Positions 1,236-38,873 of a DNA stretch of 64,000 nt are shown piece by piece. Position numbers and translations under genes: made by a program. The stretch's first letter is position 1. Each line of letters opens with the position of its first letter. Origin of the DNA: Bolinopsis microptera (taxonomy: Eukaryota; Ctenophora; Tentaculata; Lobata; Bolinopsidae); NCBI RefSeq assembly GCF_026151205.1, contig NC_087072.1, positions 10,330,169 through 10,394,168 on the forward strand, in the 5' to 3' direction. The notes beneath the pieces are model-generated. The model searched no databases. It saw nothing but the letters and a program-made list of their open reading frames with translations, and had not been told where the DNA came from.

Positions 1236-4200
1236 ATGGCGATGCTATTTGACCAACCGCTTGACGACTTTTCTATGGACGACCTATGTGGATATAACAA
1301 CACGATCATCGATCAAAACTTCTGGGATGCTGAGGAGAACAAGGTATGTTCGAGATTCCAGACAAATTCCAGACGCATTTTAAAGCGTTTGTTTTCATGT
1401 TTTCAACCTATTGGGTTACAAATAATATTTCCGCGATGAAGTGGTAATTGAATGAATCACCGCGAATCTTTCAAAATAATTTCATTATTTACAAATCATC
1501 CCAACTTGTAACATAGGTGTTTTTGCATTTCCAGAATGCTGAGCATCTAGATACTCGGAATAACATCAAATATAACTTTAAAACTATTTCAGTTCAATCT
1601 GGGACCACTTCTCCCGACCCCGCCCTTATCTCCGGATCAGCAGCTACAACTGAAACAGGAGGCCGAGGCCATGGAACCCTGGTCCACTGATGCTGAAGTA
1701 GAATGCTACTTTTCTCTCAACCAGAGCCACAACATTGTCCTCAACGACAGGATCTGGTGTGACGAGAAGATCCTGACTCCAACTGAAATGCTAGACAACA
1801 GTCTAAAACTGATGACCCCGATAATGGATGACATGGTGCTGAACCCAGCCCGGATCCGTCCCATCACCCCTCTAACCCCCATCAAGCATGAAGTAAACCA
1901 CTCAACTCCCCTCAAAGTTGACGAGTCCCCGATGAAGAAACAACGCCAAGCCCCTAAACCTCTACAAGCCCCTAAATTCCGACTTGAAAGGTTTCCAATT
2001 GTGAAGATCAAGGATGAACCTGTGTCTCCGACCATCTCTTCCCCACGGTGTTTCTTCGCACCTCCACCTCTAAAGATGACCACTGAATCCACCTTCCCGG
2101 ATCACAGCTCCAGCATGACCACAGTGGAGATCAAAGAGGAGCCCCTGGAGTATGTGCCACCCATTAAACCCGACACAAGGATTAGAGTCACCGTTAAAAA
2201 GGAGCCCTCCTTCGACTTCACAGAAAACAGTCACTCAGAGGTGAGAAGAGTTTTTAAGCTTAACATGTTTTTGTAATGCATCAGCCTGATATTAGTCCTC
2301 AATTCTTATTCAACAGATATCATAATCTCATTTAGAGTGAGTTGTGGTTTAGAATCTCTACTTTTGTGGTTATGCATGGTTAGCAAGGTTACGGAATCTG
2401 CGAAATATGATAATACTTATTTTAAAACTAAACTAATTTTCTGCATTTCAGCTTGTTTTGAAGGAGCCAACGCGGAGTCCGAGAGGGCGGAGCGCGAAGC
2501 GACAGTTACAGTGTTCGAGCAGCAGCAGTAGCAGTAGTTCGAGTAAAATTCAAGATGTAACGATAGAAGAGAGACCGGTAAAAACAGAAAGAAGGAGCTC
2601 CTTACGATCATCCGACTCATTTTCAGGTTTGTTTGGCATCAGTTACCAGAGTTTGCATATTTAATTTTAGCATATTTTGTGGCAGTTAAACGGGATTTGG
2701 TGGCCAACCGCCAAGCAGAGAGCAATGAGCATGTCTCACAAATCTGAGCAGTCTTAAATCCGCATGACCATCCGCATCCGTCATTAGCCAGATTAGCCAG
2801 AACTTCTTTTTCGGTTGCTGGAACCTTGCCTGAAAGGACCTAGAAAGGGCGTTTTTAATCTCTGGCATTGCAAATCAGGCCACCTTTTCGGGCAGATAAG
2901 TGATAAGAGCCAACAGAGGTCCGGTGAAGTTAGCGCCTGCAACCTGCAAATGCAGTGGTATTCGACTGTTCTGGCTTTATCCCAGGAGCGGGCGGGCTAG
3001 CTGGCTAGCATACAAAGTTGCCACTAACGCGGGGGGTTCTCCTTACATTTTACCTGTCAGAGATTTGGGCTGAGGGTCTGCACGTCTGCCACTCCATCTC
3101 TCTCTCTCTCTCTCTCTCTCTCTCTCTCTCTCTCTCTCTCTCTCTCTCTCTCTCTCTCTCTCTCTCTCTCTCTCTCTCTCTCTCTCTCTCTCTCTCTCTC
3201 TCTCTCTCTCTCTCTCTCTCTCTCTCTCTCTCTCTCTCTCTCTCTCTCTCTCTCTCTCTCTCTCTCTCTCTCTCTCTCTCTCTCTCTCTCTCTCTCTCTC
3301 TCTCTCTCTCTCTCTCTCTCTCTCTCTCTCTCTCTCTCTCTCTCTCTCTCTCTCTCTCTCTCTCTCTGGGGTGCCGGCTTGCTTCCTCCTCCATTTGTCA
3401 CCCTGCTGTCCTGCTCTGTGTCCCTATGTTGTCCTACTGGTGGCACACAATGTAGCACAGTATTGGGTGACGGATTGTTTTACTGAAGAACAATACAGCT
3501 TGCCCGCATCCTGGTTACGACTCTGACTATGTCTTAAGTTGTTCAAGTTCTGCCCTCCTACCTTATAACATATTTTAATACATGATATAAATATCAGAGA
3601 GGTGGTAAGCTATTAATTTGTCTCGACGGAAATCATAGCGTATGAACTGTTCTAAATTTGAACTTGGTCCACACTCAGAGGAAATGAAACCGTTTTAAAA
3701 CGCCATGACGTTAGTTTAAAAAATAATGTCATGGCGGTGATCTTTGAAAAGGAGAAAATTCACACTGTGCCGAATGGCTTGTAAATTTAGATAATGGATG
3801 GAGTCTAAAATTGGAACCAGTCGTAACCTCGCCCTCTTAGAGTTAGCCATGGTTCTATTTCTATACACACGGTATGAGTTCACCAGGCACATGAGTCGCA
3901 ACTATTGTAGATCTAATAGGTATTGACTATTGTTATTAGGTAGTTAAGTATATTGCTAGTTACTGGTTGAGCTATCGGCATTCGGCAGCGGCATTATCAA
4001 GTCTGATTATTATGACGCAGGTTAGACTTTCTTCTTGACGCAGAACAGGGCTGCCGTGCTGATTATTATGAATTATAGACACTCAAGTCACAATTATAAG
4101 AGGTGGTTACCTGCAACAAGCCCTGCCACAACTAGCGCCACCTTGTAGCCAGTTAACTCGAATTTTAGTCCATCTATCTCTGCTGCTGGCTGAATGGTTT

Positions 4201-37800: not shown

Positions 37801-38873
37801 TTGGCACCATTTCACTGAAACTCTGGTTGTTTTACAAAATTTGTAGCCCGAGTCATATTTCAAAATGTATGTAAGTAGGTGTGTTTCTGACTTGTCCTAT
37901 ATTATTGTGTTTATCAAATACACGGATATTTGTAAACAATAAATTTTGAAATGTGTAAATTGTGATTTAATAGCCCGACTAGATATATCAGCAAGATCAG
38001 TTTGGAATGCGTTGGAAAGAGCATTTTTCGATGTAAGAGTGTTTCACGCTCCTGCTCCAACCAACGCAGCTAGAAACCAATTCCTACGATGTATTTGGCT
38101 CACGAGACTGAGAAGAAAAGAGCATATAATGCAAGGGTCCTAGAAGTGGAAAAAGCTTCCTTTACACCTTTAGTTTTCTCCACAACAGGAGGCATGGGAG
38201 TCGAAGATGGAATCTCCAATGGGTCAGCAATATTCAGACTCAGTTACATATCTTAGAAAGCGCTTGCGCTTTGAGGTATTAAAGCCAACAGTTATTTCGA
38301 TAAGGGGGGACAGAGGGCCCAAGTTGCGATATAAACCAGACAATATTGAACATTTAGATTTAAATATTGAGCCCTTTGGCTAGAGAATAATTTCTTAGAT
38401 ATTTTGGACAGTTTTTAATATTGGTAATGTTAATGAATTGTAATTGATTGATATATAATATTTAGGCCTGTGGCCATTTTTCGAATTATTAGCTTTGTTA
38501 AAATAAACTTATTTGTTAGGCCTTCACAAAAAAGCAGACAGGAAAATGTGTTTAGCGGGGCCCCAGTCCTATCTAGGAGAGTCATAACTAGGAGATGATG
38601 CTTTATAATTATGTTTGAGATAAGCATTGTCAGTAAACAAACATGAGGTTTCAATTTAAATGGATTAAGGTCAAAACTCAAATTCATGGCTTTGTTTCAC
38701 TCAAAAAAGCCATAAATTCAAAATGAGAGGTTTAAAAAAAGGTAAAGTCCATCAAAATTAAACTGTTTACTGAAGTGTTAAGTTTACTTACTCTCAAAAT
38801 CAAGGAAGACATTGTCAGGCAGTTTAAAGTTGTTGCTGTCCTCCTTTCGTAGTAGCTGGAGCAGATTACCCAT
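25842..38873 (-). CDS. CYRI: CYRI (FAM49) Rac1-binding regulator of SCAR/WAVE, 11 coding exons, complete
   Basis: Exons on the minus strand, 5' to 3': 38873-38792, 35886-35765, 35446-35333, 35001-34939, 34689-34630, 33979-33905, 30847-30734, 30601-30522, 29122-28996, 28728-28658 and 25908-25842 (TAG). All introns are GT-AG and all phases agree. The total is 975 nt, 324 aa, the length of human CYRI-B. It starts MGNLLQLL, with Gly2 as the expected myristoylation site. [15 protein letters not shown] (148-162) matches the vertebrate MTNPAIQNDFSYYRR; Arg161/Arg162 correspond to the human Arg pair needed for Rac1 binding. [12 protein letters not shown] and LKDQPPN are further family blocks near the C-terminus. 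Known role: active Rac1 recruits CYRI at the plasma membrane, where it competes with CYFIP and restrains Arp2/3-driven lamellipodia. It is convergent with MYC. Invertebrates usually have one gene, so I give the undivided name. Confidence 0.95.
27328..27565 (-). pseudogene. retroelement C-terminal fragment in CYRI intron 10
   Basis: On the minus strand a reading frame of about 75 codons contains [20 protein letters not shown] and IQKLRTT. After a one-base frameshift it continues [15 protein letters not shown] and a stop at 27328. This pattern (Glu-His-x3-Ile-Gln-Lys-Leu, then YGIN and DPFG at the very end) resembles the C-terminal tail found after reverse transcriptase in some invertebrate retroelements, possibly a GIY-YIG-like domain. 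The rest of the element is missing. The family is inferred from pattern memory only. Confidence 0.45.
32427..33177. mobile_element. foldback/MITE-like element in CYRI intron 6
   Basis: The left end GTGTGTAGTTGATTATGCAT and the right end (its reverse complement, with an extra ATTATT) form long imperfect terminal inverted repeats. Inside them both arms share CCTTCGTTAGGTCATTTTAAA and, deeper, TCTAAAGTGCTCACTTT. The left arm is longer (about 300 bp) than the right (about 170 bp), so one arm has an insertion or the other a deletion. There is no coding capacity. I could not see a convincing target-site duplication, so the superfamily is unknown. Confidence 0.7.
35905..36117 (+). repeat. degenerate minisatellite, about 11-bp unit TTACATACCTG/AT
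   Basis: Around 17 imperfect units of TTACATACCTG or TTACATACCAT follow each other in CYRI intron 1, starting about 20 bases upstream (in gene orientation) of the exon 2 acceptor. Confidence 0.8.
37965..38395 (+). pseudogene. decayed retroelement C-terminal domain, copy in CYRI intron 1
   Basis: The plus strand encodes [20 protein letters not shown] followed by [15 protein letters not shown]. After a frameshift near 38085 it continues with [20 protein letters not shown], then [12 protein letters not shown]. It is broken again by stops and ends near [11 protein letters not shown]. The order and spacing match the minus-strand fragment at 42585-43377. It is antisense to CYRI and too damaged to be active. 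Confidence 0.75.

Follow-up and report, generated by a model that had tools for sequence, protein, structure and literature searches.

In the human genome, MYC and CYRIB (FAM49B) are convergent and about 2 Mb apart, and MYCN and CYRIA (FAM49A) at 2p24 form an adjacent and convergent duplicate of the same ancestral pair. The gene table for mouse chromosome 15 gives the order Myc, Gsdmc, Fam49b, Asap1 (PMC5774710), and a human segment with TRIB1, FAM84B, POU5F1B, MYC and PVT1 is followed by one with GSDMC, FAM49B and ASAP1 (PMC4228273). Ancient pairs of the type listed by Irimia (2012), for example Islet-Scaper in Amphimedon, also join a developmental regulator to an unrelated gene, and enhancers are thought to hold the two together (PMC5429095). 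We analysed a 64,000-nucleotide stretch of the Bolinopsis microptera assembly GCF_026151205.1 (NC_087072.1, positions 10,330,169 to 10,394,168; hereafter the window), in which the growth-control gene MYC and the actin-control gene CYRI lie tail to tail. The pair is probably a case of deep metazoan microsynteny, new in itself but of a known kind.

The likeness to mammalian 8q24 and mouse chromosome 15 lies in the presence of MYC and CYRI on one chromosome in the same listed order. GSDMC and PVT1 intervene in mammals, whereas the 17.8 kb of the ctenophore locus contain only a transposon. Irimia-type pairs are known from a sponge and other animals, whereas MYC-CYRI is known here from one ctenophore and mammals. 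The first-pass annotation of this DNA had compared the locus with both vertebrate couples, in the same relative orientation; the Myc-Fam49b order is borne out by the mouse and human papers, whereas the likeness to MYCN-CYRIA (adjacent, convergent) and the orientations enter as general background. A paper on FAM49A makes no mention of MYCN (PMC13015221).

The MYC and CYRI genes and the interval between them

The adjacency of MYC and CYRI is real and confirmed. Both gene models are complete and convergent, MYC on the plus and CYRI on the minus strand, as the first-pass annotation had claimed, and the spacing that it gave as 17.8 kb measures 17,768 bp from stop codon to stop codon. The features of the pair are as follows, in window coordinates.

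1236..1343, plus strand: MYC coding exon 1, ATG at 1236 (sequence and splice check)
1593..2240, plus strand: MYC coding exon 2, containing the MYC box 1-like LPTPPLSP (sequence and splice check)
2452..2542 (about), plus strand: MYC coding exon 3, 3' boundary ambiguous, with several GT donors in frame (splice check)
7553..8073, plus strand: last MYC exon, bHLH-zipper and stop (PDB, PF00010, genome search)
8074..25841, no strand: DNA from one stop codon to the other, a candidate for regulatory sequence, with a single transposon (six-frame Pfam scans)
18613..21387, plus strand: retroelement open reading frame (ORF), GIY-YIG N-terminal and then a reverse transcriptase-like part (PF01541 at 1.5e-5, residues 70-116; reverse transcriptase motifs by eye)
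25842..25908, minus strand: CYRI last exon (11), with the stop (splice check)
28658-28728, minus strand: CYRI exon 10 (GT-AG splice check)
28996-29122, minus strand: CYRI exon 9 (GT-AG splice check)
30522-30601, minus strand: CYRI exon 8 (GT-AG splice check)
30734-30847, minus strand: CYRI exon 7 (GT-AG splice check)
33905-33979, minus strand: CYRI exon 6 (GT-AG splice check)
34630-34689, minus strand: CYRI exon 5 (GT-AG splice check)
34939-35001, minus strand: CYRI exon 4 (GT-AG splice check)
35333-35446, minus strand: CYRI exon 3 (GT-AG splice check)
35765-35886, minus strand: CYRI exon 2 (GT-AG splice check)
38792-38873, minus strand: CYRI exon 1, ATG at 38873 (GT-AG splice check)

The MYC gene comprises four coding exons (1236-8073, plus strand), with GT donors and AG acceptors present at the exon boundaries, and encodes a product of about 455 amino acids. 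Its bHLH-zipper exon belongs to the MYC family and is nearer to MYC than to MAX, MAD or MITF: the top PDB match is the Myc proto-oncogene (5i4z, 4.6e-14, 56.2 bits, with 35 of 87 residues identical), as against 39.6 bits for MAX, 31.4 for MITF and 22.4 for MAD, and PF00010 is found in the same exon at 3.5e-11. The LPTPPLSP of exon 2 resembles MYC box 1; the spliced protein had no listed match to the Myc_N profile at E up to 1. Genome searches covered the whole assembly of 264,652,675 bases in 232 contigs, of which C1 to C13 measure 15.2-26.2 Mb each and together hold 97.5% of the bases, while C14 has 198 kb. With the MYC exon as query, the only match, among 18 candidates scored, was the window locus itself. 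Most ctenophore bHLH proteins could not be assigned to families in a study of Sycon (PMC5064789), so a clear ctenophore MYC with CYRI as its neighbour is useful in itself.

The CYRI gene has 11 exons, all with GT-AG borders, running from 38873 to 25842 on the minus strand and encoding 324 amino acids; introns 1, 6 and 10 are long (2,905, 3,057 and 2,749 bp, respectively). The product is a member of the CYRI (FAM49) family, as it carries the Rac1-binding domain over its whole length (PF07159, E = 1.4e-125, profile positions 1-301) and has an N-terminal MGN, and 177 of 319 residues aligned with the CYRI-B structure 6yjj are identical (2.5e-103). All four genome-wide matches to PF07159, from eight candidates scored, fall at the window locus. 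Upstream on the same strand there is a 198-aa ORF that ends at 39229, 355 bp from the start codon of CYRI; that start codon is itself preceded, at five bases, by an acceptor-like TTGTAG (window 38873-39231, minus strand); from the sequence, this 5' side possibly represents a compact or trans-spliced arrangement.

The statement of the first-pass annotation that no other gene lies between the two holds for Pfam-recognisable genes, none further being found, but has to be qualified for the open retroelement ORF of 924 codons at 18613-21387. Imperfect 65-nt direct repeats, 71% alike, flank this ORF at 18272 and 22207. Its motifs, judged by eye, suggest a Penelope-like element, and the domain order, with GIY-YIG N-terminal, resembles that of the permuted Naiad group of such elements. 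A second Penelope-like ORF, also recognised by eye, is found about 115 kb away (C1:10466388-10468145, minus strand). Besides the retroelement ORF, 51 ORFs of at least 60 amino acids remained in the gap; 45 of them were scanned, the other six lying inside the element, and gave two weak Pfam matches (E of 0.0045 and 0.0065) and, to an E of 0.01, none further. The stretches 8074-18067, 18066-18612 and 21400-25841 were also translated in all six frames and read through stops, with no Pfam match up to an E of 0.05. As a control, the same type of scan recovered CYRI exons in two of three frames and missed the N-terminal exons of MYC, so a gap gene without a strong or known Pfam domain could escape it. 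Used as a genome query, the 2,501 bp adjoining MYC (8200-10700) found only their own place, a search that skipped very common words and thus leaves single copy unproven.

Common descent and its alternatives

The proposal that the pair predates bilaterians depended on a non-bilaterian source. The genome very probably belongs to a lobate ctenophore, which makes the interpretation as an ancient pair better founded. Three glutamate receptor ORFs, from eight loci fetched, were compared with PDB. The first (L066) has as its best match ML032222a, at 407 bits versus 243 for a kainate receptor, with 188 of 260 residues identical; the second (L068) is closest to a kainate receptor (195.4 bits), the ML032222a chain following closely at 181.6 bits; for the third (L063), a kainate receptor is best and ML032222a is absent among the best 60 of 246 matches. 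ML032222a is a ctenophore receptor, its name being that of a Mnemiopsis leidyi gene. The nuclear receptor DNA-binding domain gave no match genome-wide (one candidate scored), which fits a ctenophore, the absence being unproven as the control genomes were prokaryotic. A small mitochondrial contig was not found via the ATP-synthase c subunit, all nine matches being on C1, C9, C10 or C11. The haploid number is 13 in both Hormiphora and Bolinopsis; for B. microptera, a genome of about 254 Mb by k-mers, 13 chromosome-scale scaffolds hold 97.23% of the bases (PMC10232365), a share not quite equal to the 97.5% of C1 to C13. As a separate observation, the glutamate-receptor ligand-binding domain has at least 32 matches in the genome; 10 lie in reading frames that stay open over at least 900 amino acids, and several form tandem clusters (loci include C12:11782391-11809362 and C3:15860547-15936263).

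MYC and CYRI are close neighbours in two lineages of distant phyla, a ctenophore and mammals (with GSDMC between), which is what marks an ancient microsyntenic pair. The best reading of these data, and one that we favour, is that the linkage is homologous by common descent. The convergent orientation, the two vertebrate duplicates and the failure to find a host gene between the two here suggest constraint on this particular pair. In its fuller form, which we favour somewhat less firmly, the neighbourhood already existed in the last ancestor that ctenophores share with all other animals, from which it passed tail to tail into vertebrates, kept most likely as a genomic regulatory block. A scan of the contig collection for genomes of relatives gave 15 pattern matches, none of them confirmed, and a literature search, the pair list of Irimia (2012) being outside it, found no report of MYC-CYRI linkage in any invertebrate.

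Several observations weigh against common descent. MYC and CYRI are on different chromosomes in Drosophila. Bolinopsis and Hormiphora, both ctenophores, do not share a conserved gene order (PMC10232365), so the survival of one pair since the animal root is surprising. ASAP1 comes next in mammalian 8q24, whereas the ArfGap domain, searched as a proxy for ASAP, has at least 11 matches on C2, C3, C5, C7, C9 and C11 of the ctenophore genome and none on C1, although a domain split by introns may escape this search. Likewise, among 908 ORFs of at least 60 amino acids in 264 kb, the ten long ones within 100 kb that we scanned (GH35, an LRRK-like kinase, two 7tm_1 of which one is below the cut-off, a LINE, TPR, ankyrin and three unmatched) include no recognised neighbour of vertebrate MYC. 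As far as tested, the pair alone is shared with vertebrates. The Nbas_N profile gave no matches, its positive control was silent as well, and the result is uninformative.

These points bear directly on the strongest alternative, namely that MYC and CYRI became neighbours independently in the ctenophore and chordate lineages, with conserved chromosome content raising such coincidences above uniform shuffling. A crude estimate, with all inputs assumed (4,000-6,000 shared genes, 14,000-18,000 ctenophore genes, neighbours within two genes and a 1-15-fold excess of same-chromosome sharing), yields 0.3-13 neighbour pairs expected genome-wide by chance, 0.02-0.8 of them convergent in both genomes, and this too speaks against inheritance. 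The unconserved order of ctenophore genes and the missing second shared neighbour agree with coincidence, as does a look-elsewhere effect, the pair having been picked since it is recognisable. It is less easily reconciled with a gap in which no host gene was detected, with the convergent orientation and with retention in two vertebrate duplicates; we regard an independent origin as possible, though not the probable case.

It is also conceivable that the linkage is ancient yet unselected, having remained unbroken by luck and without a regulatory cause. In its favour, the distance is short (17.8 kb) and neither the ArfGap search nor the ten long ORFs revealed further shared neighbours. Neutral persistence of a single pair over such a time is improbable, though, in lineages whose local order is scrambled, and a comparative study found 34 new blocks of at least three genes in the metazoan ancestor as against none in shuffled genomes, vertebrates having lost 91% (PMC8851819). 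We consider unselected inheritance unlikely. An assembly artefact fusing two unlinked regions is very improbable, because the locus lies at 10.33-10.39 Mb inside the chromosome-scale contig C1 of 26.2 Mb and the window has no N.

A possible regulatory block

If the neighbourhood was inherited from the common ancestor, its retention could be explained by a genomic regulatory block with MYC as the target and CYRI as the bystander. Distal enhancers of MYC would sit in the gap and in the long CYRI introns (1, 6 and 10) and reach the MYC promoter by looping; breakage between the two genes would therefore cost MYC control while CYRI merely rides along. The ancestral pair would then have been copied by vertebrate genome duplication, giving rise to MYC-CYRIB and to MYCN-CYRIA. 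We put this mechanism forward tentatively.

Several published observations are consistent with parts of it. Human MYC depends for its expression on a super-enhancer that follows its start at a distance of about 1.7 Mb downstream (PMC10627926), a position that places it on the CYRIB side. In Mnemiopsis, 4,261 loops have been mapped, mostly (61%) between promoters and enhancers; 69% of the looped enhancers are intronic and they are one to eight genes distant, gene linkage is better conserved among ctenophores in looped regions, and the ctenophore-specific proteins CTEP1 and CTEP2 are found at the loop anchors (Kim et al. 2025, PMC12221973). These loops resemble the proposed arrangement in that machinery for distal control exists in the same phylum. 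One difference is that the loop study makes no mention of Myc (PMC12221973). For Irimia-type pairs, enhancer-like marks were reported on 43 of 60 ancient pairs in adult Amphimedon (PMC5429095). A point on the other side is that, at human 2p24, FAM49A (CYRIA) is served by a distal enhancer of its own (PMC13015221), so CYRI is not necessarily a passive bystander.

A still wider proposal is that MYC-CYRI was a pan-animal regulatory neighbourhood of the first animals that predated CTCF-based folding and came to be held by loop proteins in ctenophores and by far-downstream MYC enhancers in vertebrates. We consider this doubtful.

Surrounding features and significance of the pair

Among 53 flank ORFs scanned, one has a Pfam DAP match (2.2e-4). 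It marks a probable DAP gene, closer to MYC on the upstream side than any other recognised gene, with 17.9 kb separating it from the start codon of MYC.

C1:10313335-10313514, minus strand: probable exon of DAP (death-associated protein; ORF assignment by eye)

The LRRK-like kinase, with a beta-propeller, and the GH35 beta-galactosidase are long uninterrupted ORFs (C1:10258053-10260611 and C1:10248170-10250245, both minus strand). Farther on in the window, a cysteine-rich ORF (51609-53489, plus strand) has five stretches of the Ephrin_rec_like type and, by eye, an end resembling a transmembrane segment, and it is preceded by an SRCR-like ORF, also recognised by eye, with one stop codon between them.

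CpG-rich k-mers enriched in the 264 kb were considered as candidates for the GC-rich ctenophore loop motif and rejected, as they are mostly pieces of dispersed repeats. Within the window, GTGCGCGGCG (at most one mismatch) occurs only at 44,749-58,664 and nowhere in the first 39 kb. The dispersed CpG-rich repeats with this sequence (44749-55477), several with alike flanks, lie in an AT-rich genome, and judging from their sequence they could carry CpG-containing architectural motifs.

The interpretation of MYC-CYRI as an ancient pair is plausible, short of proof for both antiquity and mechanism. Should the linkage be due to chance, it would be a useful warning against taking single pairs for synteny. 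If it is homologous, it would join the small number of gene neighbourhoods that ctenophores have in common with vertebrates, and it would involve a major growth regulator. Constraint of distal enhancers on gene order from the origin of animals would then be testable at one compact 17.8-kb locus, and there would be a hint at why the mammalian MYC enhancers lie toward CYRIB. If, beyond this, the notion of a pan-animal regulatory neighbourhood were true, the cancer-relevant regulatory region downstream of MYC would find its equivalent at the base of the animal tree.

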